From Campylobacterota bacterium (GTDB lineage: Bacteria > Campylobacterota > Campylobacteria > Campylobacterales > JAJVLF01), in NCBI GenBank assembly GCA_029255845.1, contig JAJVLF010000017.1, positions 1-35,991 on the forward strand: DNA of 35,991 bases, written 5' to 3'. The position numbers and the translations under genes were made by a program. A model generated the notes under the pieces. The model did not search any database. It was not told the DNA's origin and worked only from the letters and a program-made list of their open reading frames with translations. Of this stretch, positions 4,025-35,991 are shown piece by piece. Numbering within the stretch: position 1 is the stretch's first letter; each line of letters opens with the position of its first letter.

Positions 4025-5569
4025 ATGAGCTTAAAAAAGCTTCCAATAGGCATACAGACATTTAAAAGTATAATAGAAGAAAATTATCTATATATAGATA
4101 AAACTAAAATAGCTTTAAATCTTATAGAAAATCATAAATATGTATTTCTTTCTCGTCCTAGAAGATTTGGTAAAAGCTTGTTTCTTGATACTCTCTCTCA
4201 GATATTCAAAGGTAGCAAAGAGTTATTTAAAGGCTTAGACATTTATGATAAATGGGATTTTAATGTTAAGTATCCTGTGATTAAGATAGATTTCTTTGGG
4301 GATTTACGAAGTGGAAAGAGTTTAGAAAAAACTATTTTATCAGTCTTAAGAAGTAATCAAAATAATTTAAATGTAGAATGTAATGATACTACCCATTTTG
4401 GGTCTTGCTTTAAAGAATTAATAGAAAATACTTCTAAAAAATATAATCAAAAAGTAGTAGTTTTAATAGATGAATATGATAAAGCTATACTAGATAACTT
4501 AGACCAAATGGAAGTAGCAAAAGAAAATAGAGAAATAATAAAAGGATTATATTCAGTTTTAAAAGGATGTGATGAACATTTAAAATTCGTTTTTCTTACA
4601 GGAGTATCAAAATTTAGTAAAGCTAGTATATTTAGTGGATTAAATATGCTTGAAGACATTAGCTTAAACCCAAAATATGGGAATATATGTGGATATACTC
4701 AACAAGATATAGAAACTACATTTCTACCTTACTTAAAAGATGTAGATTTAGAGAAAGTCCGAGAGTGGTATAATGGATATAACTTTTTAAAAGATGATGT
4801 GTATAATCCTTTTGATATTTTATTGTTTATTAAGAATGAATTTATATATACAAATTATTGGTTTGAAACAGGAACTCCTAGTTTTCTAATAAAACTAATC
4901 AAAGAAAATGATTACTTTATACCAAATTTATCTAATATGACTATAGGAGAAAAACTATTAAATAGTTTTGATATAGATAACTTAGATTTAGAAGTGATAC
5001 TCTATCAAGCTGGATACTTAACAATAGATAAAAAAATTATAGATGAAGAAAATGATATAATAGAATATAAACTAAAACTACCAAATAAAGAAGTAAAAAA
5101 CTCTTTAAGTGAATACATAATATTAACTATGTATAAAAACACTAATCCAAATAATTTTATAAGAAGTCTAAGAGCTTCATTAAAGAAGTCAAACCTTGAA
5201 GACTTTAAAAATACTCTAGTATCCATATTTGCTTCAATCCCTTACACAAATTTCACAAATAACAATATCCAAATATACGAAGGATTTTATGCAAGTATAA
5301 TTTATGTATATTTACAAAGCTTAGGAATTGAGATAATAGGAGAAGACATAACCAACAAAGGAAGAATAGATTTATCTGTATTTATTGAAAATAAGTTATA
5401 CATAATAGAGTTTAAAATGGATACCAATAAAGATAATGCACTAAAACAAGTAAAAGATAAAAATTATGCACAAAAATATCTTAATCAAAATAAAGATATA
5501 TATTTAGTAGGTATTAATTTTAATGAGCAAGATAAAAATATATCTAGTTTTGAGTGGGAAAAACTTTAG
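4025..5569 (+). CDS. AAA-ATPase-like (PF09820 type) / PD-(D/E)XK nuclease (PF08011 type) protein
   Basis: 'KLPIGIQTFKSIIEENYLYIDKT', 'FLSRPRRFGKSLFLDTL', 'VVLIDEYDKAI', C-terminal 'GRIDLSVFIENKLYIIEFK'. Confidence 0.9.
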   Translation: MSLKKLPIGIQTFKSIIEENYLYIDKTKIALNLIENHKYVFLSRPRRFGKSLFLDTLSQIFKGSKELFKGLDIYDKWDFNVKYPVIKIDFFGDLRSGKSLEKTILSVLRSNQNNLNVECNDTTHFGSCFKELIENTSKKYNQKVVVLIDEYDKAILDNLDQMEVAKENREIIKGLYSVLKGCDEHLKFVFLTGVSKFSKASIFSGLNMLEDISLNPKYGNICGYTQQDIETTFLPYLKDVDLEKVREWYNGYNFLKDDVYNPFDILLFIKNEFIYTNYWFETGTPSFLIKLIKENDYFIPNLSNMTIGEKLLNSFDIDNLDLEVILYQAGYLTIDKKIIDEENDIIEYKLKLPNKEVKNSLSEYIILTMYKNTNPNNFIRSLRASLKKSNLEDFKNTLVSIFASIPYTNFTNNNIQIYEGFYASIIYVYLQSLGIEIIGEDITNKGRIDLSVFIENKLYIIEFKMDTNKDNALKQVKDKNYAQKYLNQNKDIYLVGINFNEQDKNISSFEWEKL

Positions 5570-8497: not shown

Positions 8498-9178
8498 TTA
8501 ATTCATAATAGTAGCTAAAATTCCTTTAAGGGAATAATCACTTAATGTTTTATGGATAATATTTTTAGTTTCTTTATAGTCTATATTATGCTTTTTAGTC
8601 ATAAATTTTAAATTATTTAATATAGATTTATTATTTTTCATATTTAAAAGCTCATATAAAAATTTGGTTACTTCAAAAAAATAACTCTCATAATCTAAGT
8701 CTTTATATACCAATAAATATGTTTGCTTTTTTATTGATGGATTATCTAAATGAATGGAGTATTGACTTTTTATTAATCTCGCATTAATGCCTAATTTATA
8801 CCTTTTATTCCAAGAGAATTTATTAACTCTAAGCTCATTTGGTAAATTAAATATATTAATTTGAGCTAATTCAAATTTTAAAATATCTAAAGCAAATCTT
8901 CTTATTTCTAGCTTGTTTATTTCTATAAAGTTTATAAAATCTTTCATCATATACATTGGTAAGGGCATTATAGGTTTTGAATTTGCGATATACTCTTTTA
9001 TAAAAAAATCTAAATCTTCGCTTTTTGTTTGTTTGGTATATAATGGAAACCCTGAGCTTATGAAATGCCTTTTGGCATTAAAAATAAGATTTCTATATGT
9101 ATTAATGCCTTTAATTTTAGAGTCTTTTTTTTGTGTAATATCTTTAAAAAACTCTTTTTGTAAATCAGGCATTATCAC
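8498..9178 (-). CDS. HvfC/BufC-like partner protein (DUF2063-type N-terminus)
   Basis: Overlaps the 3' end of the DUF692 gene; N-terminal 'LQKEFFKDIT...YRNLIFNAKRHFISSGFPLY' resembles DUF2063 proteins. Confidence 0.65.
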   Translation of the reverse strand: MIMPDLQKEFFKDITQKKDSKIKGINTYRNLIFNAKRHFISSGFPLYTKQTKSEDLDFFIKEYIANSKPIMPLPMYMMKDFINFIEINKLEIRRFALDILKFELAQINIFNLPNELRVNKFSWNKRYKLGINARLIKSQYSIHLDNPSIKKQTYLLVYKDLDYESYFFEVTKFLYELLNMKNNKSILNNLKFMTKKHNIDYKETKNIIHKTLSDYSLKGILATIMN

Positions 9179-9992
9179 ATATTGTTTTAATTTTATTAAA
9201 TTCTTTTGCTAATGTTTTAAATGGCGGGATATTATTATCTCTTTCAAGCAACACAGGGGATTTTTTTCTTTTTAGAGTAAAATTTAATAGCTCTAAAACA
9301 TCATCTTTAACTTTTGAGCCATGAGTGTCTATCAAATCCCCATTATCTGTCTTTAAATGACCTGCTATATGATGATATGCGATATGCTCCTCATTTATTT
9401 CTTCTATAAATTTATATGGAGAGAAATTATGATTTTTAGAATTTACATATACATTATTTACATCAAGAAGTAGCTTTGAGCCACTTTTTTTACAGACTTG
9501 ATTAATAAACTCACTTTCACTAAATTCACTCTCTATATCATAATACCAAGAGGCATTTTCTAAAATTAATTCTCTATTTAGAAAGTTTTGAACATAATCG
9601 ATATTATCAACTATTGATTGCACAGATTTGTTAGTTAAAGGGGGTGGCAAAAGCTCATAGGTTTGCTTGCCATGAAAATGACAAAAAGAAAAATGCTCTG
9701 AGTAATGCTTAAAACCCCATTCATCTAAAAACTTTTTCATTTTAATTAAAAATAATTTACTCATACCTTCTTTCATTTGCGAGGTCTCAGAAGCGATAGA
9801 AAGAGATACCCCATGGCACATTATAGGATATTTATCTACTAGATTTTTAAATAATTTTTGATGTTTTTTTGGGATGACAAACCAATTTTCTGGAATAATC
9901 TCAAGCCAATTAGGTTGTAATATAGAGCTATCAAGCAAATCATACATAAACTCATCTCTTAGACCTATCCCTAAGCCTTGAAATTTTTTCAT
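9165..9992 (-). CDS. DUF692 / multinuclear non-heme iron oxidase (MNIO; HvfB/BufB/MbnB family)
   Basis: 'GLGIGLRDEF', 'HGVSLSIAS', 'SEHFSFC', 'LLDVNNVYVNSKNH', 'HIAGH...IDTHGSKVKDDV', 'LLERDNNIP'. Confidence 0.92.
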   Translation of the reverse strand: MKKFQGLGIGLRDEFMYDLLDSSILQPNWLEIIPENWFVIPKKHQKLFKNLVDKYPIMCHGVSLSIASETSQMKEGMSKLFLIKMKKFLDEWGFKHYSEHFSFCHFHGKQTYELLPPPLTNKSVQSIVDNIDYVQNFLNRELILENASWYYDIESEFSESEFINQVCKKSGSKLLLDVNNVYVNSKNHNFSPYKFIEEINEEHIAYHHIAGHLKTDNGDLIDTHGSKVKDDVLELLNFTLKRKKSPVLLERDNNIPPFKTLAKEFNKIKTICDNA

Positions 9993-20335: not shown

Positions 20336-21844
20336 TTAAACCCCTATCCGAACAACCTCATCAAAAGAAGTCTGCCCATTTTCAACTAACTCTCTTAATC
20401 TATCTGAAAGAACTAACAAACCTTTTTTAACTGCCATAGTCCTTAGAGCATAATCATTACTTTCAGTTTTCATCATTATTTTAACATCATCATCTATTAT
20501 AAATAATTCTCCTACTGCTTTTCTTCCTATATATCCTGAGTAATTGCATTTTTTACATGAGCTGTGTTTGTATACTGTGGTGGTTGTTTTTATTTTTAGG
20601 CTTTTTTTGATTTCTATATTTAGATTATCTTCTTGTTTGCAGTCTTCGCATAATATTCTTACTAGTCTTTGAGCTAAAACACCTAATAAGGAAGATGATA
20701 ATAGGAAATTTTCCACTCCCATATCTAGCATTCTGGAGATGGAGGCTGTTGCATTATTGGTATGTAGGGTTGATAGAACTAAATGTCCTGTTAATGCAGC
20801 TTGGGTTGCTATTTTTGCTGTTTCACTATCTCTTATTTCTCCTATCATTACTATATCTGGGTCTTGTCTTAGTATGCTTTTTAATCCTGAGGCGAAAGTT
20901 AGACCTACTTTATTATTTACTTGTATTTGGCTTATGTCATTGCTTTTATACTCTACTGGGTCTTCTACTGTTATTATGTTTTTTTCTGGGGATACTATTT
21001 TATGCATTAATGAATGTAGGGTTGTTGATTTACCGCTTCCCGTGGGTCCTGTTACTAAGATAATGCCGTAAGAGTTTTTAATTAATTCATTTAAGTCATC
21101 AATTATATCTTTTTTAAAGCCCAATTCATCTAATGATGGAATTTGTGAGCTTTGCATTAATATCCTCATAACAACTCTCTCACCATAATATGTTGGCAAA
21201 ATAGAGACCCTTATGTCTAGGGTATTTCCTGCTATTTTTATTTGGGTTCTTCCATCTTGTGGAATTCTTTTTTCAGATATGTCTAAATTAGATATTACCT
21301 TAATTCTTGATATTATAAGGTTCATTATATTAATTGCTAGTTTAGCATGAGTTATTAGCACTCCATCTACTCTGTATCTAACTAAACCCTCTTTTTCATG
21401 CATTTCTATATGAATATCACTTGCTTTCTTTTTTACACCTTGATAAAAGAGAGAATTAACAAATTTAATAATAGGGGCAGATTCTTCGCTCTCTAATATA
21501 TCCGCAGATGTTTTTAGAAACTCAGTTAAGCTAATTTCTTCTTCATCTTCATATTCTTCGCTTTTGGCTTCTATGCCATCTAAGTCTTTATCTGTTCTTG
21601 CTTCGAGGCATTTATTATATAGCCTATCAAAGCTTTCTTCATCTAAAAAACAAAGAGGATAATCAAAATGATACTTCGCAATATACCCTAAAGAAATAGT
21701 CATATACTTTTCATATATAGCTATGCTTATTTGCTCATCTATCATTGTAAATAAGCAATAATTCTTTACTGCTAAATGATTATCAACTCCATCTACTTCT
21801 AATGGCTCAAGCTCTGTATTATGTATATGCTGACTAAGTCCCAT
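20336..21844 (-). CDS. gspE: Type II secretion ATPase GspE
   Basis: 'ASDIHIEMHEKEGLVRYRVDGVL', Walker A 'GPTGSGKSTTLHS', 'EDPVEYK', 'ILRQDPDIVMIGEIRDSETA', C-terminal CxxC pair. Confidence 0.95.
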   Translation of the reverse strand: MGLSQHIHNTELEPLEVDGVDNHLAVKNYCLFTMIDEQISIAIYEKYMTISLGYIAKYHFDYPLCFLDEESFDRLYNKCLEARTDKDLDGIEAKSEEYEDEEEISLTEFLKTSADILESEESAPIIKFVNSLFYQGVKKKASDIHIEMHEKEGLVRYRVDGVLITHAKLAINIMNLIISRIKVISNLDISEKRIPQDGRTQIKIAGNTLDIRVSILPTYYGERVVMRILMQSSQIPSLDELGFKKDIIDDLNELIKNSYGIILVTGPTGSGKSTTLHSLMHKIVSPEKNIITVEDPVEYKSNDISQIQVNNKVGLTFASGLKSILRQDPDIVMIGEIRDSETAKIATQAALTGHLVLSTLHTNNATASISRMLDMGVENFLLSSSLLGVLAQRLVRILCEDCKQEDNLNIEIKKSLKIKTTTTVYKHSSCKKCNYSGYIGRKAVGELFIIDDDVKIMMKTESNDYALRTMAVKKGLLVLSDRLRELVENGQTSFDEVVRIGV

Positions 21845-21845
21845 T

Positions 21846-23711
21846 TTATAATTCTAATTCTTCATAATCTTCTGTTATTTCTTCTGCTTTATTTTTATAG
21901 TTTTTTGTCAATTCTTTTAAATATGCTCTTTTTAATACTTCTAATTCAGATAGCTCTTCTCTTAAATCCGATAAACTAGAGCCTTTAGCGATAATATAAG
22001 GAGTTAAAATAATAACTAAATTTATATTATCTTCCACATCTTGCTTGGAAGAAAATAAATATCCTATAAGAGGTATATCAGATAAAATAGGCAATCCCCC
22101 GCTTCCTTTTGATTGTCTTTTTCTAGTAAGCCCACCTACTATTACACTTTCTCCATGACTAACAATAGCAGCTGTTTTTACTTCTCTTTTTGTGGTTGTA
22201 GGAGAGCCTGTGCCTCCTGTGCCTTCTAGGACATCTTGGATTACGACATTTATATTTAATGTTACTCTTTCATCACTTGATATTCTTGGTTTTACTTTTA
22301 GAGTAATTCCTATATCTTCTCTTTTAAAACTATTTTTAGTAGTTGTGGTTGTAGAAGATGAGCTTGTAATTATTGATATGGTTTCTGCTACTTTTATTGT
22401 GGATTCTTGATTGTTTATACAAGAAATAGAAGGCTCAGAGACTATCTTAGCGGCTGAATTATCAACAAGAAAATCTATACTAGCTCCTATAACAGCTCCA
22501 CTTTTTGAAGATGTATCAATTGATTTTGATAATACAGATGAAGCAATTGATTTTCCCCCTGTATTAGCAGAAAAGCTAAATAAACCAGCTCCCGTTACAG
22601 CTCCTCCCTCTACTCCATATTTCACACCCATTGAATCTGATTTTTTCTTATTTATCTCAATAATTTGTGCTTTTACATATACTTGTTGTTGTGATACATC
22701 AAGTTTTTTTATTAGATTTATTATAGACCTAAGCTCTCTTGGAGGACCTACTAGAAGTATTCTATTGGATTTATTATCTGCTCCTATATATGGCTTATCT
22801 GCGGTATTTTTATAATGTTTTTTGGCTATTATAGGGGACATTATTTTTAATATATCTTTCGCATCAGCATTTTGAAGATATATTACTTCTGTTGTTTTTT
22901 CTGTTTCTTTATTTGCATCTCTATCTACTTTTTCGATATATGCTTGTAAATATTTTAAGTTTTTTCCACTTCCTATTAATATAAGTGATTGTATATCTTT
23001 ATTAATCATAATAGTAACTTGATTTTCTAAAACCCCACTACCAAACAATGAACGAGCTATTTTTTGAGCCTCAGAAGATATAGAATTTAATGCCACATTT
23101 TTAATAGGGATAGTAATAAGCTTCTTATCAATGCCTCTTTCTAGTAATTTAATGGCTTGTTTGATAAGCTTTATATTTTTTGGGTAATCTGTAATAATTA
23201 AAGTATTAGTATTTCTATTAGTAAGCACTTTCCCATATCTTGATGCTATATGTTTTATTTTAGAAGATATTACATCCACATTTTCTCGTTTTATATCTAT
23301 AAACTCTGTAATAAATTGCTGTAGGTTTTCTAAGTCACTATCTCCAAATACAATAGGTATTCTTGATTTTGATGCTTCCGTGCTTCTAACAATCTTTAAA
23401 GTATTTTCATCTCCTACAAGAGTAAACCCCTTATTGTCTAAAACAGATATTAGTATATCAACAAGCTCTTTTTTTCTAACTGGCTTGGTTCGGACAAAAT
23501 CTACTTTACCGCTTATCTTTTGGCTTAGTAGGATGTTTTTATCAAGCACTTTAGATGTTATTTTAATTAAATCTAATATTGGCAAATCTTTAAAGTCAAT
23601 ATTTACAATATCATCCCCATCTGTAATAAAAACCTTCTTTTTCTTTTTAGCATCTAAAGACATACTACTTACAATAAGTATAGCTAAAATAACCCTTAAA
23701 AATTTACCCAT
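21846..23711 (-). CDS. gspD: Type II secretion secretin GspD
   Basis: N-domains plus secretin C-domain 'VKAQIIEINKKKSDSMGVKYG', 'ESVIVGGLTRKRQSKGSGGLPILSDIPLIGYLFSSK'. Confidence 0.95.
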   Translation of the reverse strand: MGKFLRVILAILIVSSMSLDAKKKKKVFITDGDDIVNIDFKDLPILDLIKITSKVLDKNILLSQKISGKVDFVRTKPVRKKELVDILISVLDNKGFTLVGDENTLKIVRSTEASKSRIPIVFGDSDLENLQQFITEFIDIKRENVDVISSKIKHIASRYGKVLTNRNTNTLIITDYPKNIKLIKQAIKLLERGIDKKLITIPIKNVALNSISSEAQKIARSLFGSGVLENQVTIMINKDIQSLILIGSGKNLKYLQAYIEKVDRDANKETEKTTEVIYLQNADAKDILKIMSPIIAKKHYKNTADKPYIGADNKSNRILLVGPPRELRSIINLIKKLDVSQQQVYVKAQIIEINKKKSDSMGVKYGVEGGAVTGAGLFSFSANTGGKSIASSVLSKSIDTSSKSGAVIGASIDFLVDNSAAKIVSEPSISCINNQESTIKVAETISIITSSSSTTTTTKNSFKREDIGITLKVKPRISSDERVTLNINVVIQDVLEGTGGTGSPTTTKREVKTAAIVSHGESVIVGGLTRKRQSKGSGGLPILSDIPLIGYLFSSKQDVEDNINLVIILTPYIIAKGSSLSDLREELSELEVLKRAYLKELTKNYKNKAEEITEDYEELEL

Positions 23712-24571
23712 TAATACACTTCATAATCAATTTCCTTTGTTTCATTTCCTCGTTTAATAGAAAGCTTTAATCTTTTCACATTGTCTATATTATAGTATAT
23801 TTTAAATGCATCTCCATAGCTTTTTAAAGATTTATCATTCACATGAGTGATGACATCTTCTTTTTTAAGTCCTAATTTAGAAAATAAACTACCTTCTTTT
23901 ATTTTTCTTATTCTAAAGCCTACTATCTTTTTATTTACTATTTTCTCTTTTATGGATATTTCTTTCCATATACTCTTATAATCATTTCTATATTTGAATA
24001 TCTTTTCTCTTGGTATAGCTAGTATGCTATCATCTGTATTTGCTTCTCTTGTTTTATCTCGCACACTTATTATATTATCATTTTTTGAAGAGGCTTTTTT
24101 ATCTTTAATGCCATCTATGGCCATATTATATTTTGTGCCATCTTTATCAAATATAGCCTCAGATGTTGTTGTATTTACAGATACTAATGTATATAAATCT
24201 TTTAATTTATCATTTAAATCTACTAAAATAGATTTTTCATTTTTCTTGCCTTTTTTATCATGGACAATTATAAATGTATTTTCTTTTTTATTTGCATTAT
24301 AATATATAGCTTTTAGAGTAAATTGTGTTAATTCTAAAATAGGCTTTACGACTTTAGGAGGCTCTATTTTCTTAATAGGCTTTATAAAGATTTTATTGAT
24401 ATTTAGCCTATAATAGTCTATTTCTATGCTTTTTTTTGGCATTGTTTCTAAACCCACATTAGAAAATATAAAATACAAAGGAGTATATATCACAAAACAA
24501 AAAGCAATAACCATAAAGATATTTGCTAAAAAAGAAATGATATTTTTATCTAAACTTATATTCATAAACAT
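23711..24571 (-). CDS. gspC: GspC-like inner-membrane protein with C-terminal PDZ-like domain
   Basis: Single N-terminal TM; 'GFRIRKIKEGSLFSKLGLKKEDVITHVNDKSLKSYGDAFKIYYNI'. Confidence 0.8.
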   Translation of the reverse strand: MFMNISLDKNIISFLANIFMVIAFCFVIYTPLYFIFSNVGLETMPKKSIEIDYYRLNINKIFIKPIKKIEPPKVVKPILELTQFTLKAIYYNANKKENTFIIVHDKKGKKNEKSILVDLNDKLKDLYTLVSVNTTTSEAIFDKDGTKYNMAIDGIKDKKASSKNDNIISVRDKTREANTDDSILAIPREKIFKYRNDYKSIWKEISIKEKIVNKKIVGFRIRKIKEGSLFSKLGLKKEDVITHVNDKSLKSYGDAFKIYYNIDNVKRLKLSIKRGNETKEIDYEVY

Positions 24572-25073
24572 ATCCTCCTTTATTATCTTTTTTCATCATA
24601 GAGAGGATTTTATTATATTTTGTTTTTAGTATTTTAGATGGTTTTAGCTTGATTAGTAAGGTTTTTGATAATAAATCAATATGCCCTTTAAGCTCTCCTA
24701 TATTGCCAATAGAATCTATATTTATAGTAGTAGGAGAAAAAATATTATGAGATATATGAATATCATTAATTTCTCTTGGCATAAACTCATTAAGATGTCT
24801 GTTTATCTTTATGCCTTCTATGTCTATATTATTAAATAATATCATTAAACTAAAAGACATTTCTTTAATATTTGCTATCTTTATATCTTGATAGTAGATT
24901 TTAGCTCCATCAATATAAAATAAATTTAAAATATCTTTTGTTTTTTCTCCATTGATATATACTTGTTGCTTAGCTATAGTAGATTCTAGCTTATAATACA
25001 GTATATTTTTAGGCATTATAGCTATAAGTATCAATAAAGAAATAATAAGTAAGACTGGTGTTAGTTTATTCAA
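24546..25073 (-). CDS. GspN-like T2SS accessory protein (TTG start)
   Basis: Position in operon; 'GELKGHIDLLSKTLLIKLKPS'; TTG start overlapping the upstream TGA (TTGA). Confidence 0.55.
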   Translation of the reverse strand: MNKLTPVLLIISLLILIAIMPKNILYYKLESTIAKQQVYINGEKTKDILNLFYIDGAKIYYQDIKIANIKEMSFSLMILFNNIDIEGIKINRHLNEFMPREINDIHISHNIFSPTTINIDSIGNIGELKGHIDLLSKTLLIKLKPSKILKTKYNKILSMMKKDNKGGYVYEYKFR

Positions 25074-25477
25074 AATGTAATGTCCATAGCAAATGTTTTA
25101 TTATAATCATCTTTTGTTTTTATAGATAGAGTATTGATACTCCAGCTGGTGGAAAGGATTTTATTGCTTAATTTATGGATTTTATTTAATTCATCCACTT
25201 TAGCATCTATATCTATATGGGCTTTTCTTTTGGTTATTTTACTTTGCATATATTGCCCATCAAATCCAGATGAGTTTAATATATTATTCATTTTTTTATC
25301 TGCATTTTTATTATTATATCTCACCCTTAAGCCATTTAGGTATTTACCTTCTTGTTTTAGTTTTTCTATATTTATGTTTTTATTTTCTATTTTTTGATGT
25401 AAAGTGCTATTTTTATATGCAAAAACTATGGCCACTAAGAACATTAAAGCTGATATATGAAGTTTATTTATAGTCAA
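25070..25477 (-). CDS. GspM-like T2SS protein (TTG start)
   Basis: N-terminal TM, coiled region, position between L-like and N-like genes; TTGA overlap. Confidence 0.55.
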   Translation of the reverse strand: MTINKLHISALMFLVAIVFAYKNSTLHQKIENKNINIEKLKQEGKYLNGLRVRYNNKNADKKMNNILNSSGFDGQYMQSKITKRKAHIDIDAKVDELNKIHKLSNKILSTSWSINTLSIKTKDDYNKTFAMDITF

Positions 25478-26577
25478 AACTCACCTTTTATGCTTAATAT
25501 ATTATCTTGAATTCTTAAAGAGTTTAATTCAAAATATTTTAATAAGTATTGTTTATAGTCTTCTGCACCTTTTAACTCTTCTTCTTTACTTTTATTATCA
25601 TCACTTTCTTTTATAGATATCGCAAGAATGAATTGCCCATCTCTTATATCTATATCTCTCATAAAATCCCCTGTTTTTAGAGGAATATCAAATAAATTTT
25701 GGATATTTTCTTTTATTTTTATTTCTTGTGATAGTTTTTTTTCTAAAGATTTTTTTATACTTTTTAGCTGTAATGATGAGGTCGGTATTTTATATTTATT
25801 TATTATTGTTCTCTCTTGTTTAATTACTTTATTATAATCATCTTTTAACACAAAATATCTTGTCGCTAGAGAAAAAGCAATTATAGAAATAGATATAACT
25901 AAAATATTAATATATTTTGAGTCTAACATCCCATCATTTAGGCTTATATTCAAATTATGTTTTGATTTTTTAATATTGTTTAGTGAAAACTCTAAACTTT
26001 CTATTTCTACATCTGCTTTCAAAAGAGATTTAGGTAAAACAACATAAATATCATCTCTATTATATAGGCATTTATCATCATCTATTGTGATAATATCATT
26101 AGTAAATTCATTTTGAGCAAGGTATATTTTACTCACTAAAGACAAATCAAGATTAGAGTTTTTTAATGTATCAAGTATCTTTTGTGAATCATAAGCAAAA
26201 AGTATAAAATCATCATTATCTTTAATAGCAAAATACTTATATTCCCCATCAGGGACTTGAGAGCCAAAACAAGAAAGAGCTAATTTAGATGCTTTACTCT
26301 CACTACTAACAGGCAATGATTCTCTTTTTACCCAATAAAACACAGGAGATAAAACAATATTACAAGGTTTATCTATATATGATAAATCCACATTTTCATT
26401 ATGAATAAAAATATTAAAATCCACATTTAGTGACTTTTTATAAGCATTAATTCTAGTATTTATTTCATTAATAATTAGTTTTAATGTTTCACGACTAAAG
26501 ATGCTATCCACATTTAGTGACTTTTTATAAGCATTAATTCTAGTATTTATTTCATTAATAATAGATTTTAATGTCAC
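25474..26577 (-). CDS. GspL-like T2SS protein, GTG start preferred
   Basis: Cytoplasmic domain + TM + periplasmic region; GTG at 26577 preceded by AAGGA-N5, better than the ORF-track start at 26631. Confidence 0.65.
   Translation of the reverse strand: MTLKSIINEINTRINAYKKSLNVDSIFSRETLKLIINEINTRINAYKKSLNVDFNIFIHNENVDLSYIDKPCNIVLSPVFYWVKRESLPVSSESKASKLALSCFGSQVPDGEYKYFAIKDNDDFILFAYDSQKILDTLKNSNLDLSLVSKIYLAQNEFTNDIITIDDDKCLYNRDDIYVVLPKSLLKADVEIESLEFSLNNIKKSKHNLNISLNDGMLDSKYINILVISISIIAFSLATRYFVLKDDYNKVIKQERTIINKYKIPTSSLQLKSIKKSLEKKLSQEIKIKENIQNLFDIPLKTGDFMRDIDIRDGQFILAISIKESDDNKSKEEELKGAEDYKQYLLKYFELNSLRIQDNILSIKGEF
26419..26562. repeat. 57-bp perfect direct repeat, 87-bp period, in frame in gspL
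   Basis: Copies at 26419-26475 and 26506-26562; encodes IINEINTRINAYKKSLNVD twice. Confidence 0.92.
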
Positions 26578-27469
26578 TTGCTTCCTTTTTCTCAAAATTA
26601 TATTTAAAAATTGCTTTTGTTTTCTTCTCAAATACTGTTATATCTAGTCTGCATATAGCTAGCCAAGATTTTGTTTTTATATTTAATGCACTAAATGTTG
26701 TATTATGTTCTTTACCAAATGCCTCATTTAAATCACTAATAGTTTCATTTTTATCTACAATCTGCTTAATCTCTTCTATATCTTTTTTTGTAATTTGTGA
26801 TAATAGGCTTGTATCCATATAATTAATATCTATATTAGCATCATCAAATCTAAAATATTTATTAAAATCCACTTTATTAATATTGCTATCTGTTGTTTGT
26901 TTTATATAATAATCTTTAATCTTCTTTAAATGTCCTAAAGAAGATATAAATCCATTCTCAAATCTATTATCTCTATAAGCTATCTCACTTACCGAAGCTC
27001 GTGGTTCTAAATCCTTGTCAATACTGTCAGCTAATATATCTAAAAAATAATCCACATCCACCACATTAGCTTCATATAATAATCGTGCAATTATATCATA
27101 AATGTGCTGATTATATTGAGTGGTAGTTTCATTATTTTTTTTATAATAAACTATAAGATTATTGATATTTATTTTTTTATTATCAGGAGCAAATTTTATA
27201 GACATCTCAATGCCACTTTTTTTATCTTTGAAACTTATATCTTGTGCTAATAAAATATCAAAAGTTTCTTTATTGCTCACAAAAGAGGACTTGCTCTTTA
27301 AGACATTTATAATATTAGAAATTAATATATTATTTTGATGGATTAATTTACTATGATTGTATAAATTGAAGTTTTTTTTTGTGATTTCTGTATTTATACC
27401 AATGATGACTATTAAAACTCCCATTAAAAAAATAGTGGATATTAGTATAATGCCTCGTTTTTGTTTTAT
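26555..27469 (-). CDS. gspK: GspK-like minor pseudopilin, probable ATA start
   Basis: In-frame extension upstream of ATG 27424 gives (M/I)KQKRGIILISTIFLMGVLIVIIGINTEI, a prepilin-type N-terminus. Confidence 0.8.
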   Translation of the reverse strand: MKQKRGIILISTIFLMGVLIVIIGINTEITKKNFNLYNHSKLIHQNNILISNIINVLKSKSSFVSNKETFDILLAQDISFKDKKSGIEMSIKFAPDNKKININNLIVYYKKNNETTTQYNQHIYDIIARLLYEANVVDVDYFLDILADSIDKDLEPRASVSEIAYRDNRFENGFISSLGHLKKIKDYYIKQTTDSNINKVDFNKYFRFDDANIDINYMDTSLLSQITKKDIEEIKQIVDKNETISDLNEAFGKEHNTTFSALNIKTKSWLAICRLDITVFEKKTKAIFKYNFEKKEASDIKIYY

Positions 27470-27984
27470 TTTTTTAACCAGAAGCCTTGACCTTCATATA
27501 TGCTACCTCTATCAGATATTGTTCGCTCTTTCCAGACATATCTTTTGAGTTTATCGCTATATTTAAATTCCCATAAAATAGAAGCTCTAAATAAACCTAT
27601 AATATCATTCACTCTTTCACTATAAGCTGACATACCAATCAAATTCCATCCATCATTGATTTGTAATTTACTAATTTGATACCCTGTCTTTCTTGGCAAG
27701 CTTATATTTTCATCTTTACTCATTTTAATCCAAAAGCCTTGACCTGGTGGAATACTCGCACCATAGTTTTTGCTCCATTTATTAGAAGAAAATGTCCATA
27801 AGGTATTATTATCAACATTTTTAATAGTAGATGTATCAAGAACTGCATTAGTAGGGGGAGAAATTAAATTCCATCCAACTCTTAGCTTAATTTTAGCTTC
27901 TTGCACATTAACAAGATTTGGGGAGGGGGGACCCTGTGATAGGGAGATTTGCATCAAAATAAATAATAAAAATAATTTATTCAT
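27466..27984 (-). CDS. Secreted protein with two GWNL...GQGFW repeats, first gene of the T2SS operon
   Basis: Signal peptide 'MNKLFLLFILMQISLSQ'; 'GWNLISPP...GQGFWIK' and 'GWNLIGMS...GQGFWLKK'; stop overlaps the gspK ATA start. Confidence 0.75.
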   Translation of the reverse strand: MNKLFLLFILMQISLSQGPPSPNLVNVQEAKIKLRVGWNLISPPTNAVLDTSTIKNVDNNTLWTFSSNKWSKNYGASIPPGQGFWIKMSKDENISLPRKTGYQISKLQINDGWNLIGMSAYSERVNDIIGLFRASILWEFKYSDKLKRYVWKERTISDRGSIYEGQGFWLKK

Positions 27985-28448: not shown

Positions 28449-29588
28449 TTGCACAAAATTGAAGAATACACAGATGATTATTTACTAAATATATTTAAAA
28501 AGTATATATTTATATCTACCTCTATTTTATTGGTTTTATTTATTAAATACATACATATCAACCCTGCCTTACTTTTTCCTATTGTTTTAAATGTGGTTGT
28601 GTTTTATATTGTTAAATATAATGCTCCTATAAAGATAATGACTCATATTTTTATTATTATACTTTTACTATCTATATTAGGAAGCTTCTTTTATATCACA
28701 CATAATTCATTTTTGGTGTTTTTAATAATGGTATCTATGTTTCCTTATTTGACATTTTCTTTAATTAAATTTGATATGGCTATTGTTTATAATGTTATTT
28801 TACCTTCTAGTATATTTATTCTTAATCAATATCTTGGGCTTTTAGATATTATTGATAATAGTATTTTATTGGTATTTTACTTTTTAACTACTCTTTCTTC
28901 TTTATTTTTTGCTACATCTAGAATATTTCAAGTAAAAAATATAGAAAATATTAGTAGCTATTTAGATAATGAAATAAAACTAAGAGATGATAAAATAGAT
29001 GATTTAGATAATGAAATTACAAAATTACTAAATAAGGTTGATAATTTAAAAATCAAAGATGATATTACAGGGTTTTATAAAAAAGATATTACGATAGAAT
29101 TTTTACAAAATGAGGTTATAAAATCTATAAGGCTTAATCATACACTTTTATTAACTTGTATTCATATTAAAAATTATACAAGAATACAGCAACTCTATGG
29201 AGAAGAAACTCTCAAAAAAGCTCTTAAAGAAGTATCTCAAGCTTTAAAAGCCACTATAAGAAGAACAGATGTTATAGGATATTTTGATAAAGAAACCTTT
29301 ATGTGTATAATGCCTAATACTTCTTTTGATAATTTTTCTATACTTTCAAATAAAATATCTAAGCAAGTTAAAAAAATAGTAGTAGAAAAATTTTTTATAG
29401 AAATATCTATGGGAATATCATCAATAAATGGTGCAAACTATGATATACAAATAATAGTAGATGAAAAAGAATTTAGCATAGTATCACAAATGCTAAATAT
29501 GTCAAGACAAGGTGTAAATATAGCTAATAGAGAAAATGTTCCTTTTCATCATTTTGAAATTAAGGAAAATTCTAATTCAGCAAACTAA
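28449..29588 (+). CDS. Membrane protein with degenerate GGDEF domain (TTG start)
   Basis: N-terminal TMs and coiled coil; 'DDITGFYKKD...RRTDVIGYFDKETFMCIMPNTSFDN' aligns with GGDEF proteins but has DKETF in place of GGDEF. Confidence 0.8.
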   Translation: MHKIEEYTDDYLLNIFKKYIFISTSILLVLFIKYIHINPALLFPIVLNVVVFYIVKYNAPIKIMTHIFIIILLLSILGSFFYITHNSFLVFLIMVSMFPYLTFSLIKFDMAIVYNVILPSSIFILNQYLGLLDIIDNSILLVFYFLTTLSSLFFATSRIFQVKNIENISSYLDNEIKLRDDKIDDLDNEITKLLNKVDNLKIKDDITGFYKKDITIEFLQNEVIKSIRLNHTLLLTCIHIKNYTRIQQLYGEETLKKALKEVSQALKATIRRTDVIGYFDKETFMCIMPNTSFDNFSILSNKISKQVKKIVVEKFFIEISMGISSINGANYDIQIIVDEKEFSIVSQMLNMSRQGVNIANRENVPFHHFEIKENSNSAN

Positions 29589-29683: not shown

Positions 29684-32600
29684 ATGGATAATATGTATAA
29701 GGATATATTTAAAGGTTATTTTAATTTACTGTTAGTTGTTTGTTTCAGTGTTTTTCTAAATTCTGGAGCACATCAACTTTGGCTCACAAATGGAGTATGG
29801 CAACCCGTAGGAATTCAAGGTATCTATACACTTGATCAAGGTGCTACTACTTGGGAAGCAGATTTCACAAATATTATAGAAGATAGAGCAGATTCAAATG
29901 CTACTTATGTGAGAGGCGATAAGGCAACTGCAAATAATTATTATGTAGATAAAAATAATATGATGGTAAAAGATTATCATACTTTAACTTCAAAACTTCA
30001 TGCCACCATAGGGTTATTTGCGATTAAAGGTGGAACTTCAAAAAAAGTATCAAATTATATTGACTTAGATGGATCTGAAAAAAATAATGTAAAAATGAAA
30101 GTTCTCAAAACTAGAGATAAAGATTATAATCTTCCTATGTATCGTATGTATATAGAGGGAAGACCAAATGTTCCTGCTATTAGGATAGATTATCAAGCTG
30201 ATTATGAGGGGGATAAATTTAGAATTAAATTTGGAGAAGAAGAAGAAGATTATTATGCTTATTTTAGATCAACTGCTACTTTTCAACATCCATCAAAACT
30301 AAGAGTAGAAGTGATAGAAAAAATTACTTCAAGCTCACCTATTGATAGAGCGGTTGATTTTAATATATCAGATAATAGTTTATTATTATTAGCAGAAAAT
30401 TCATTTAAAATATTAGATGATGATGGGATTACTGTAGGAGGAGATGGGGTTACACCATTTAATCCTTCCAAAGGTGATTTTTTAACTATGTATAGCTTTA
30501 ATGGTTATAAATGGGATATTTTTAATAGCACGAATATAAATATAGGTTCAAATGATTTTGAAAAATTTAATCCTGGCACTGGCTATTGGGCGCTTGCAGA
30601 AAGCCAAAATGCTCATAATGATAATAATCAAAGTAAAATAGGCATAATTACCAAAGATGAGCATGAAATACTAGATGAAACATATGCTAATGTGATAGAT
30701 GGGTGGAATATGCTATCTTTTCCTAAAGGAGATTTGCGATATGCTACTTCTGGTATGTTTATTCCTTTAGATGTAATTTTTGCCGAAAATGGAATTAATT
30801 TATTTTTCTCGCATTTAGGTAATGTGGATGCTACTTTGGCTAATTCAAGAGGAAATAATATTATCTTAGAAGCTAATGGCACAGTAAGTTATGTTGATTT
30901 TAATGATTCTGGAGATGTGGCACAATATATAAATCTAGCTGTTAAAAATAAACAAATAATGTATTCAGAAGAAACTAATTTAAGAGCATTTCCAGCTATG
31001 GGTGTTAATGGTCTTAATACTAAAAGAGGAGTTATGCTAATATCAAATCATCTTTTTGAGGTAAATAGCTCTAATTCTTCAATTACTACATTAACAGGAA
31101 GTCCCCTTAGACCAACAGTATATAACACTTATTCTTCTATATATGGAGAATATTTCTTAGGAATAGAAGTGAATGATTTAAGTGGCACAGATATTAATGG
31201 CTCTATAGATATATTTATGCCTGGAGCTAAATTTAGCTCAGCTGGTGCTAAAGCTTATGACTTAAATAATTCTACTACTACACCAGATGGTGTTATAAAA
31301 ACAATAAATTCTATTGGTAGTGCACTAAATAGAGCAGCTATTCCACTTAATGAAACAGCTGGTGGAACACCAACAGAAACTTTTTTAATAGACTTTAAGT
31401 TTGAGACACAAAAATTAGTTAAAGATTATGATAACCCTATCTCATTTCCATCTATATTGCTATCTACTCAAACAAGGTTTAGCATAAGAGATACTACATA
31501 TATGCAGGTATTTAGGCATGAACATAATGGTTCATTTTATGTAGTAGGAGCAAAATCTGAGCTTGTGAAAAGTGGTGGTGGAGTTACTTTAAAAGATGCC
31601 ATAAACTCCAAAAAGGATATTACTAATATAGTTTATACAGATTTAGGAAATAAATATTTTTCTATATCTTCACCAACAATTAGAAATTTAGATTTATTAG
31701 AAGCAGACGATAGTTTTTATTCGAGATTATTTGATGATGTTGCTTTAAATAATGGAGATATTCCAAGAAAAAACCTAATGAGAGGGGCTGTTACTTTTGT
31801 GAGAGATCACAGAAATATAATGTCTGTAGATGTAAGAACCAATTTAAAAATACTAGAAGGCAATAAAACTATGCTTCCTAATGATACAAATTTTTCAGAA
31901 TATAATGTATCTCTTACAAATAATGGTGGTTTTAAAGTAAATGGTAGTTTTCCTTTTAGTTCAAAAGATTTAAAACCAAATGCTATTTGGTCTACAGATT
32001 TTCCTCAACAAGATGGACCTATAAATATGATGGCAAGACAAGGGAAAGAAATTTTAGAGATTATGACTATGAATAAATCATCAGCTAATGAAAACTATTG
32101 GGCTTTTACGGATTTGACAAAAGATCCAGATGAGTGGTATACTAGTGATCAAAAAGATACTCAAGATATTTTTCATATTTTTAATCAAAAAGCATATTGG
32201 GTAAAATTAAAAGATAAAATGAAAATAGTTCCACAGAGTGTAGATGCTAGTGCTAAAAATAGCTATATAGATAAACCAAATTCTAGTTTTAAAAGAAGAG
32301 TATATACACATTTTAATAATCATATAGTAGATGCTATAGGAAAAACCACAAATCATTTAGATCATACTTTAACGATAAAACTAGATAGAGGTTTTATGGA
32401 ACCTAATGAGCATTCTTATTATGATGTTTTAGCTATCATAGCAGGTGAAGAGCATAGATTAAGACATAATGGTCAAGGTTTTCAGATACGAATATCTTCT
32501 AATGAATTAAATATTAGAGAGAAAAATGATAATGTTAAATATCCTATACTAATAAAAGCCTATGATGGTTTTGGTAATAAATTTGAAGAAAATGCCACAA

Positions 32601-33592
32601 ATCATGTATGGAATATGGATTACTCTAAACCTAAAATACCTCATATAAAATGGAATACAGAAGGTGATTTAGTAGTTACGATAACAGAGGCAAACACCAC
32701 ATTTGAAATATATCAAGACTATATTTCTGATATAGGAATAGATAGATTAAAAAATAAATTAGCAAATAATAAATTAAGTGAAAATAATAATTTAGCATGG
32801 AAAGTTCCAGGAAATGCAGATGAGGGTGGTCTAAAAATATTAAAAATAATAGCTAAAAGAACTATACCAAATAATAATTTTTTATATTCAGATATGAAAG
32901 TATTTCCTTATGCTCCATTAAAACTTAAAGCAGGAGATGAAAAATCAAAAGAAAGTCTGCATATTTTATCAATAGATGCAAATAGTAGCAAAAATACTAT
33001 ATCTAATCCTTATTCATTTAAACAAAAGCAATATTTAACTCTTAAAGCTCCTAGTGATAGCATTACTCCTAAACATAATGGAAGTAATGGCATAGATAAT
33101 GGGGTAGAAATATCTAGATTGAAAAAAGCAATAGATGATAATGAGGCTATTAAGATGGTATATCATCCAGAAGGCCGTAATGAGGGAGATAAAAGACTTA
33201 GTGCTTTTGGTGGTAATGAAACTATGTATTTAAATATATTAAGTCAATTTCATACAGACCCCAAACCAATAGCATATATTACATATATTAAAGAATATGC
33301 TGGCAAACCTTTTTATGTATCCTATGATGGAAACCTATATAAAGGATTTTTTGCAAAAAGTGATAAACATAATAATGATGCTAATTCTTATAATTTATAT
33401 TCGGGTTCTATTAATGCATATTTTGACACAAGAGGACCTGAGGGAAATTTAATTGATTATGCAAAATCTAATCTTAATTCTCAGCCTATCATTATTCCTA
33501 GTAAGCCTATAGCAATTGACAATAATGCAAGTAAAGACTCAAATGACAGTAATGGCTCAAATCCAGCACCAGGAACACCTCCGTTGCCTTAG
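29684..33592 (+). CDS. Giant exported protein with GWNM/G-x-GYW repeats (paralogue 1)
   Basis: 1302-aa ORF, signal peptide-like N-terminus, 'NGVWQPVGIQG', 'FNPGTGYWALAE', 'VIDGWNMLSFP'; homologous to the following ORF. Confidence 0.85.
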   Translation: MDNMYKDIFKGYFNLLLVVCFSVFLNSGAHQLWLTNGVWQPVGIQGIYTLDQGATTWEADFTNIIEDRADSNATYVRGDKATANNYYVDKNNMMVKDYHTLTSKLHATIGLFAIKGGTSKKVSNYIDLDGSEKNNVKMKVLKTRDKDYNLPMYRMYIEGRPNVPAIRIDYQADYEGDKFRIKFGEEEEDYYAYFRSTATFQHPSKLRVEVIEKITSSSPIDRAVDFNISDNSLLLLAENSFKILDDDGITVGGDGVTPFNPSKGDFLTMYSFNGYKWDIFNSTNINIGSNDFEKFNPGTGYWALAESQNAHNDNNQSKIGIITKDEHEILDETYANVIDGWNMLSFPKGDLRYATSGMFIPLDVIFAENGINLFFSHLGNVDATLANSRGNNIILEANGTVSYVDFNDSGDVAQYINLAVKNKQIMYSEETNLRAFPAMGVNGLNTKRGVMLISNHLFEVNSSNSSITTLTGSPLRPTVYNTYSSIYGEYFLGIEVNDLSGTDINGSIDIFMPGAKFSSAGAKAYDLNNSTTTPDGVIKTINSIGSALNRAAIPLNETAGGTPTETFLIDFKFETQKLVKDYDNPISFPSILLSTQTRFSIRDTTYMQVFRHEHNGSFYVVGAKSELVKSGGGVTLKDAINSKKDITNIVYTDLGNKYFSISSPTIRNLDLLEADDSFYSRLFDDVALNNGDIPRKNLMRGAVTFVRDHRNIMSVDVRTNLKILEGNKTMLPNDTNFSEYNVSLTNNGGFKVNGSFPFSSKDLKPNAIWSTDFPQQDGPINMMARQGKEILEIMTMNKSSANENYWAFTDLTKDPDEWYTSDQKDTQDIFHIFNQKAYWVKLKDKMKIVPQSVDASAKNSYIDKPNSSFKRRVYTHFNNHIVDAIGKTTNHLDHTLTIKLDRGFMEPNEHSYYDVLAIIAGEEHRLRHNGQGFQIRISSNELNIREKNDNVKYPILIKAYDGFGNKFEENATNHVWNMDYSKPKIPHIKWNTEGDLVVTITEANTTFEIYQDYISDIGIDRLKNKLANNKLSENNNLAWKVPGNADEGGLKILKIIAKRTIPNNNFLYSDMKVFPYAPLKLKAGDEKSKESLHILSIDANSSKNTISNPYSFKQKQYLTLKAPSDSITPKHNGSNGIDNGVEISRLKKAIDDNEAIKMVYHPEGRNEGDKRLSAFGGNETMYLNILSQFHTDPKPIAYITYIKEYAGKPFYVSYDGNLYKGFFAKSDKHNNDANSYNLYSGSINAYFDTRGPEGNLIDYAKSNLNSQPIIIPSKPIAIDNNASKDSNDSNGSNPAPGTPPLP

Positions 33593-33595
33593 TGT

Positions 33596-33670
33596 CGGAT
33601 TACGGAGAACAGAGAACGGATTACGGAAAAAAGGGTTTAGATAACTTTACTCTGTAATCTGTAATCCGTT
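33596..33670. repeat. Direct/inverted CGGATTAC repeat cluster, terminator-like
   Basis: CGGATTACGGA at 33596-33606 and 33617-33627; inverted partner GTAATCCGTT at 33661-33670 (pairs with AACGGATTAC 33615-33624). Confidence 0.75.
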
Positions 33671-33769
33671 ATATTTAAAAATATACTCTTTTATTTATAA
33701 AATATTAAAGTTGTCGATGTCATACAAAATATTGTACATTTTACACATTGATTCAAAAAGGAGTTTGAA

Positions 33770-35991
33770 GTGATAAGTCAAGGAAGAATTAAAATAGGTA
33801 TAGTTTTATTTATATTACTAAATACTGTAATGTTAAATGCTGTTATACAAACAGAACTAAGAAATGGGGAGTGGCAACTAATAGGGTTTATGGGTCCTCA
33901 AAACTCTGCAGCATCAGGCTCATATAATGGAGATTTAAATAGAGAAGTAATAGATATAGCAGATGCAAATACTACTTATTTAGTAAAAGAAAGTAATGGT
34001 GCTAATGGACAACTAGCATATAAAACTGGTATATTAGATACAAATCTAGCAACAACTTATACAGGCACAACAACACAAATAGGCTCTAGTATAGGAATAT
34101 TTGCTATTAAAAATCAACAATCTCCATCAGGTGAAACTACTCTAGCTTCTACAGAAGCAACAGCTGTTAAAATGAAAATAGCTAATCCAAAACAATTTAT
34201 AATTAATTTACCAAAATATAGAATGTATATAAAAGGTAAATCAGCTCCTGCTGTTAGAGTAGATTATCAAGCAAACTATGAAGGACAAAAGATTAGTATG
34301 AAGTTTGGTAGTGAGACTAAAGATTATGTAGTGTATTTTAATCATGCTAATACTTTTATGTATCCAGCAATCCCACTAAATAGTGCTGATATTGAAGCAG
34401 GACAACATGATTCTTTGTCTACTCTTATACAAGATGCAATTGATTTTGATACTTCTGATAATAATATAACAGAAATGTTAGTTAATAATAGATATACCGT
34501 TAAAGATACAGCAGGTGTATATAATAAAGATTTAACTGACTTTTCTTCATCTACTGATTATCAAGCAACAGTATATAGGTTTTCTAATGGGGCTTGGGAG
34601 GTTTTTGATAGTAGAAATGCTAAACAAAGCTCTAATGCTTTTGATAAATTTAATACAGGTAAAGGGTATTGGGTTAAGATTGATAATGCTGCTACTGCTA
34701 GGGCAATAGCAGGTGAAGAATTAATTATTCCTAAAACAGGTTTAATAACTTCATCTTCAGCTATAATTAAAGATAATGCTTATATGAATGCTAAGACTGG
34801 TTGGAATTTATTATCATTTAAAGATACAAATATAAGATATGCTCCTAGTGGGGTTTTTATTCCTCAAAATGTTTGGAATAGAAATGATTTATTTGGTGGA
34901 GTTAGATTATTCTTTAAATCAGAAGGAAGATCTAATGGTGTTCTTAGTGGTAATATTAATTTAGGAACTACAATTGATAACAACTATTCAGATACAAATT
35001 CTGCAGCAAGAGCTATTAATTTAGCTATGCAAGTAAAAAATGATATATCAAGTGAGTTTCAAAAGATTAGAGCTATACCTGCTATAGATTTTAATGCTAC
35101 TGGTGGTGATAGCACACCAGGTATTATAATTTTATCAGATGGTTTGTTTGAGATAAATACTTCAGGAAATACAACAACTGGTGCTCCATTAAATCAAGTT
35201 ATAAAAACAATAGCTAAAGGGAAATTAAAGCAATTAGCTAATGGAAACTATGGTTCAGCATATGGTGAATATATGAACTTTATCAATATAAATACTGCTT
35301 TAGATGCTTCTCGTGATGTTAATGCTTCTCTATCTGTATATATTCATAATGGTAATTCTGCTGCTCAAAAAACAAATGCATTAAATGATGGTAATAATTC
35401 AAATAGATTAATAAATGTTTTAGATGCATTTACAAGAGCTGCTACTAAAAATGGGGAAACAGCTCCTTATACAAGAACGGCAGGGTATTTGGCAACAGTA
35501 AACTTTAATGCTGTTACTGACTATACTGATGATAATAATATGACTCATATGCTTATAGCTTCAGGAGAAAGATATTCTATTTCTGATTCTACTTTTACTA
35601 AAGTATATAAATATAAAGATGGTGGTAAATTTACAATAGTATCTTCAAAAGGTTCTACAAATGTAGATTCTTCTAGTGCTACTGATGCTACTGGGGCTGC
35701 GGATACTGTAGCAATTATTAATGCACAAACAGCAACTACAGGAGTCCGTGCAATAGATCTTGGTCAAGCAACAGGAACAACAAATCTATACTTTGCTATT
35801 ATGTCAACAGAAAAAGGTTTAGAATTATTAGAAAATGATTCTAAGAATTTATTTGAAGATATTGCATTGACTGATGGAGCTATTCCTAATATTGCTAGAA
35901 CAAGAGGAGCTATTACTACTGTTCATAGCACTAAGAACTTATTTGATACTAGTGTTGTTATTAATAGGGATGTTATTGATGGGAATGTTAG
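33770..35991 (+). CDS. Giant exported protein with GWNL/G-x-GYW repeats (paralogue 2), GTG start, truncated by window end
   Basis: AAAAGGAG-N6-GTG; signal-peptide-like N-terminus, 'NGEWQLIGFMG', 'LPKYRMYIKGKSAPAVRVDYQANYEGQKISMKFG', 'FNTGKGYWVKI', 'KTGWNLLSFKDTNIRYAPSGVFIP'. Not in the ORF track because it has no stop in the window. Confidence 0.85.
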   Translation, partial: MISQGRIKIGIVLFILLNTVMLNAVIQTELRNGEWQLIGFMGPQNSAASGSYNGDLNREVIDIADANTTYLVKESNGANGQLAYKTGILDTNLATTYTGTTTQIGSSIGIFAIKNQQSPSGETTLASTEATAVKMKIANPKQFIINLPKYRMYIKGKSAPAVRVDYQANYEGQKISMKFGSETKDYVVYFNHANTFMYPAIPLNSADIEAGQHDSLSTLIQDAIDFDTSDNNITEMLVNNRYTVKDTAGVYNKDLTDFSSSTDYQATVYRFSNGAWEVFDSRNAKQSSNAFDKFNTGKGYWVKIDNAATARAIAGEELIIPKTGLITSSSAIIKDNAYMNAKTGWNLLSFKDTNIRYAPSGVFIPQNVWNRNDLFGGVRLFFKSEGRSNGVLSGNINLGTTIDNNYSDTNSAARAINLAMQVKNDISSEFQKIRAIPAIDFNATGGDSTPGIIILSDGLFEINTSGNTTTGAPLNQVIKTIAKGKLKQLANGNYGSAYGEYMNFININTALDASRDVNASLSVYIHNGNSAAQKTNALNDGNNSNRLINVLDAFTRAATKNGETAPYTRTAGYLATVNFNAVTDYTDDNNMTHMLIASGERYSISDSTFTKVYKYKDGGKFTIVSSKGSTNVDSSSATDATGAADTVAIINAQTATTGVRAIDLGQATGTTNLYFAIMSTEKGLELLENDSKNLFEDIALTDGAIPNIARTRGAITTVHSTKNLFDTSVVINRDVIDGNV

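Follow-up and report, generated by a model that had tools for sequence, protein, structure and literature searches.

A family of giant, modular, probably secreted proteins encoded by two tandem genes and further dispersed copies in a Campylobacterota genome

The window analysed here, 35,991 bp that make up one entire contig (C79) of a genome assembly of 2.22 Mb in 265 contigs (G000), ends in two neighboring genes, copy a and copy b (Table 1). Judged from sequence and predicted structure, their products belong to a hitherto undescribed family of large, modular proteins that are probably secreted. The joint claim that these giants are secreted, stay at the surface as adhesive or sheath/matrix proteins, are probably substrates of type II secretion, and have been diversified by gene conversion is advanced tentatively, at a little under an even chance; the estimates for export and for role were counted as non-independent in this figure.

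Results

Both giant reading frames at the end of the window are real, lie on the same strand, and are homologous, as had been claimed in a first-pass annotation made from the sequence alone. In BLASTP, copy a and copy b align over 758 columns with 32% identity (306 bits, E 8e-94), a similarity far above chance. The peptides quoted in that annotation are present in the translations, and the Ser/Asn/Pro tail it ascribed to the first protein indeed ends copy a. The likelier start of copy a is the ATG at 29693, with AGG shortly upstream; copy b starts with GTG at 33770, directly preceded by AAGGAG, and is incomplete because the contig stops at 35991. A GATTACGGA-rich inverted repeat is located between the two genes (33593-33680). 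Elsewhere in the window (8498-9992), a RiPP enzyme of the MbnB/TglH/ChrH type adjoins a DUF2063 protein; this pairing is known from metal-related RiPP operons.

Table 1. Giant genes, their domains (copy a), and neighboring features in the window.
Feature	Position	Strand	Remarks and basis
PDZ protein, GspC-like	23711-24571	-	Pfam PDZ E 2.1e-7
GspD	21846-23711	-	Pfam Secretin E 7e-42, GspD N0 E 1.9e-15
GspE	20336-21844	-	Pfam T2SSE E 1.8e-129
Type II secretion operon	20336-27424	-	GspE, GspD, PDZ protein, then putative GspN/M/L/K
Small secreted-type protein	27466-27984	-	Two GWN...GFW modules; directly in front of secretion operon
Membrane GGDEF protein	28449-29588	+	Upstream of copy a, same strand; Pfam GGDEF E 3e-15
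Copy a, giant exported protein	29684-33592	+	1302 aa; ORF, 9-row family alignment, full-length profile match
Signal peptide, N-terminal	29693-29767	+	By eye; no lipobox
Y domain copy 1 (RMYI...DYQ block)	30095-30295	+	Residues 138-204; profile and hhalign
W...GYW / GWN module 1	30356-30793	+	Residues 225-370; W, YW, and W invariant across 37 members; hhalign
Module with weak flagellin hook-IN match	31376-31888	+	Residues 565-735; placement by eye
YW module 2	31886-32263	+	Residues 735-860; segment profiles, hhalign
Beta-sandwich region, probably Ig/FnIII-like	32261-32923	+	Residues 860-1080; AlphaFold and Foldseek, suggestive
Y domain copy 2, C-terminal	33101-33388	+	Residues 1140-1235; profile and hhalign
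Low-complexity S/N/P-rich C-terminal tail	33461-33589	+	Translation of copy a
Copy b, giant exported protein	33770-35991	+	740 aa; frame still open at contig end

For the domain architecture, the family alignment was split into segments, each of which was used as a profile query. In three members, the profile of the first Y domain also hit the C-terminus (domain E 3e-5 to 9e-3), and hhalign paired it with the C-terminal domain at E 1.6e-6. This is the RMYI...DYQ domain pointed out in the first-pass annotation, where its internal repetition as the C-terminal domain had been missed. GYW modules 1 and 2 were likewise related to each other (hhalign E 6.1e-6), whereas two cross-control pairs gave E 0.46 and 0.7. 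Across 37 N-terminal halves, W253, Y277, W278, and W317 (numbering of the aligned segment) are invariant, as are W92 and Y124 in the C-terminal half. The copies on contigs C66, C231, and C247 carry a beta-helix-like insert ahead of module 2 (by eye). AlphaFold modeled the N-terminal half with a mean pLDDT of 77.6 and a pTM of 0.61, the C-terminal half with 68.9 and 0.62, respectively. Calcium loops were considered and rejected: some members have a DxDxDG-type motif close to the N-terminus, but its presence is inconsistent.

The earlier description of the family as unknown held throughout the searches. No giant tested had a match above cut-off in Pfam or NCBIfam, including carbohydrate-binding families (Pfam GbpA_D3, at 0.0076, was below cut-off), and no known catalytic domain was found in these scans. 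A sequence search of the PDB returned nothing significant (best E 0.52), and Foldseek matches at E<=0.001 were absent, both for the two halves against the PDB and for the N-terminal half against a viral fold library. The best rows for the C-terminal half were the beta-sandwich proteins SdrE (E 3.3e-3), IL-7 receptor, and SiiE, which is only suggestive, with a probability of <=0.75 among the matches listed. No paper on these giant proteins was found in the literature.

Queried with copy a and with the family profile, the genome yielded seven N-terminal halves (C79a, C79b, C214, C199, C66, C195a, and C195b) and as many C-terminal ones (C79a, C214, C199, C66, C195b, C231, and C247). The simplest reading would be about seven giant genes, C231 and C247 carrying the missing C-terminal halves of C79b and C195a. 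Copy b probably continues on C231 or C247; no end overlap of >=21 nt joins either of them to C79. The homologous tandem pair noticed at first stands, but amounts to two of ∼7 copies, the rest of which are on other contigs. In the phylogenetic tree, all seven N-terminal halves form one clade (support 100/100), within which copy a groups with the C214 copy (86/69) and copy b with those of C66 and C195a (100/99). Because the two genes of the window fall into different old subfamilies and are not sisters, a simple local tandem duplication is disfavored as their origin. The paralogues of this genome are ∼35% identical (9-row family alignment); copies other than copy a also have a hydrophobic N-terminus, and several end in Gly/Asn/Pro tails of differing sequence.

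The first ∼1.95 kb of C247 resemble animal DNA, a 54-aa exon matching human WWP1 with E 5.9e-19. At this place (L015, 1-1950), the WWP1-like HECT ligase exon is fused to the bacterial gene, an apparent host-symbiont assembly chimera. A silent, promoterless cassette as an explanation for the truncated C247 copy was rejected, since the animal-like DNA at the contig start marks the contig as chimeric or mis-assembled.

Sequence exchange between copies had escaped the first-pass annotation. The copies on C66 and C231 are 98.1% identical over 1608 nt. The shared tract of ∼1.5 kb exceeds 99% identity from C66 position 2761 through to the gene end: windows of 60 nt share 40 and 48 positions at the 5′ edge, then 58-60 from 2761 onward, and only 25 immediately past the stop codon (4248-4250), downstream of which the two contigs carry unrelated genes. 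This pattern would result from gene conversion or from a partial duplication of recent date; a repeat-induced assembly error may also have caused it.

The genome contains other repeats as well. A 161-bp palindromic, MITE-like element (∼80% self-complementary) is present on C231 (L016, 9295-9455) and on many other contigs, in dozens of copies, more than 30 of them at 94-100% identity. On C31 (L117, 4783-10543), it recurs every 800 bp exactly, with seven identical 119-aa ORFs without Pfam match in between; so complete an identity could be an artefact of assembly. On C213 (L118, 1244-2150), a 113-bp unit that stems from the palindrome forms eight perfect tandem copies.

The first-pass annotation had also missed the type II secretion operon on the same contig (Table 1). 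Its GspN/M/L/K genes were assigned by eye, the gene order matching K-L-M-N-C-D-E of relatives; a 69-bp direct repeat (26419-26487 and 26506-26574; 95.7% identical) lies close to where two overlapping secretion genes meet. The small protein encoded in front of the operon matched the family profile weakly (E 8.7e-4) and the module profile with E 1.4e-3. When used as the query, it retrieved similar units at >=7 other places in the genome (E<1e-3). The proteins that carry these units contain PKD, subtilase, beta-propeller, or Lcl_C domains, the fusion at the subtilase locus being unsure as the matched stretch contains a stop. The N-terminus of a sulfatase, inspected by eye, also shows the GYW motif, its similarity to the giants there being weak (domain E 0.16). 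Taken together, this points to a module that may be used by secreted proteins in general.

Sec signal peptides were read by eye at the N-termini of the complete copies, and secretion of the giants is well supported. An autotransporter beta-barrel translocator was not found in the Pfam scans, the C-terminus being a low-complexity tail; nor was there an RTX match as in type I adhesins, and a signal peptide is present. With a Sec signal peptide in a genome that encodes a type II system, the giants show two features expected of a type II substrate, and export by this route seems slightly the better bet. The type II loci of eight family-bearing relatives contain no giant gene, so the proximity of the two in G000, the only genome of this comparison where it occurs, is supporting evidence only. 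Co-occurrence is uninformative because a secretin is present in each of the 46 genomes tested, whether or not they have the giant family.

The family matched 25 of the 299 genomes of the order, G000 included, in the family-level groups f14, f23, f16, f5, f21, and, weakly, f7. In relatives, the proteins are 1000-1400 aa long, often with several per genome, and occur in >=5 other families of the order. When 397 genomes of the phylum were sampled, eight among the matches listed had E<=1e-4, G000 among them, and all were from the same order. With the improved profile, one or two copies per genome were counted in f14, about three to seven loci in f23 (including some fragments or split hits), and seven in G000; the low number in f14 means that copy expansion is not general. 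In f14 (L082, 1841-9250, and other loci), the longer type of giant is encoded in an operon with a Big_2 lipoprotein, a second lipoprotein, and a small exported protein, an arrangement that would suit a surface complex; the short f14 type is flanked by housekeeping genes. Single-sequence queries found no such lipoprotein partners in G000, a weak negative.

Genome content suggests, strongly but indirectly, that G000 is 'Candidatus Thiobarba', the filamentous gill epibiont of deep-sea Bathymodiolus mussels. RuBisCO is encoded (E 7e-138), but absent from all 59 relatives examined. Contig C191 carries genes for the large and small RuBisCO subunits, a hypothetical protein, and a CbbQ-like protein; C199 carries those for fructose bisphosphatase, phosphoribulokinase, transketolase, and phosphoglycolate phosphatase (named by eye). 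Both gene orders match, by eye, the Calvin-cycle clusters of 'Ca. Thiobarba' (PMC6908604). Thus, G000 combines membership of the Campylobacterales with RuBisCO and two Calvin-cycle gene clusters, and its size of 2.2 Mb, its GC content (28-31% on the contigs measured), and its isolation at the family level agree with the same report (PMC6908604). Animal-like DNA is present in the assembly at the start of C247.

Discussion

The first-pass annotation had suggested that the giants may be surface, stalk, or matrix components. Signal peptides, size, beta-rich structure, the lack of detected catalytic domains, and low-complexity tails fit this suggestion; for an adhesive or matrix function, we consider the chances evenly balanced. 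In the mechanism we propose, the signal peptide would take the giants through the inner membrane via Sec; the type II system encoded on C79 would most likely carry them across the outer membrane, after which they would remain on or around the cell surface, where they would mediate adhesion or build a sheath or matrix. Each giant has two ∼70-aa Y domains, one near each end, together with GWN/GYW modules and predicted beta-sandwich domains. The ∼7 copies derive from one ancestor, and occasional recombination would overwrite parts of them and vary the C-terminal half.

The data show the family, its copy number, its architecture, and the shared tract; type II export, retention at the surface, an adhesive or matrix role, and host attachment are what we infer from them. 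The genome paper offers no explanation of how the beard-like epibiont holds on to mussel gills (PMC6908604), and the giants are testable candidates for this attachment. The family also offers a way into the large exoproteins that lack annotation in several families of the order. A more far-reaching proposal, that GYW-sharing, type II-secreted giants attach campylobacterotal epibionts to animals and vary by gene conversion, GYW being a new retention or export signal, is speculative and rather unlikely to hold in full. If GYW did act as a sorting or retention signal, exoproteome prediction for many uncultured Campylobacterota would benefit.

Because the GYW motif also occurs with sulfatase, subtilase, and PKD proteins in G000, the giants could instead form a secreted glycan-binding scaffold that holds the sulfatase and subtilase on host mucus or particles, serving nutrient capture rather than attachment. 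That no carbohydrate-binding family scored above cut-off, that the GYW similarity of the giants to the sulfatase is so weak, and that the likely organism is a chemoautotroph make this unlikely. Somewhat less probable still is a general, host-independent structural role in the periplasm or outer membrane: the presence of the family in several families of the order and the housekeeping neighbors of the short f14 type would agree with it, but patchy distribution and strong differences in copy number do not fit housekeeping. About as improbable, or slightly more so, is a switching S-layer or sheath set like sap of Campylobacter fetus, with one copy expressed and the others acting as sequence donors. 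The several copies, the mosaic exchange limited to one part of the gene, and the filamentous growth of the likely organism (PMC6908604) speak for it. Neither clustered cassettes nor a shared invariant 5′ region with a single promoter were found, however; the copies are dispersed full genes with diverged 5′ ends and their own signal peptides wherever the start was assembled, the two C-terminal halves lacking a start sit where a contig ends or within an apparently chimeric contig, and the paralogues share only ∼35% identity. An origin of the proteins as phage- or mobile-element-derived fibers is highly improbable: they are large and beta-rich, and the N-terminal half gave weak Foldseek rows with phage proteins (best E 9.6e-3, probability 0.13), but they have signal peptides, form a single clade in G000, and no phage genes were noticed at the loci read.

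The preferred reading, secreted adhesive or sheath/matrix proteins, can be set against known systems. With flagellin hook-IN proteins, the giants share a Flagellin_IN match (E 8e-4) in only 1 of 37 members, and no flagellin N- or C-terminal helices were reported. The Ig-like adhesins SdrE and SiiE resemble the predicted beta-sandwich region in the weak Foldseek similarity, which is not significant and does not identify an adhesin in the PDB; they differ in having no sequence relation to the giants, which lack sortase, type I, and autotransporter signals. The Sap S-layer proteins of C. fetus are made without cleaved signal peptides and exported by a type I system. Like the giants, they are large, multi-copy, surface-type proteins of Campylobacterota that recombine between copies; in contrast, the giants have Sec signal peptides, are encoded at dispersed loci, lack a common conserved 5′ region, and are only ∼35% identical. 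Although the type II neighborhood of the giants is not conserved in the relatives examined and they are putative substrates, they share with type II exoproteins a Sec-type signal peptide, a large multi-domain build, and a type II operon on the same contig.
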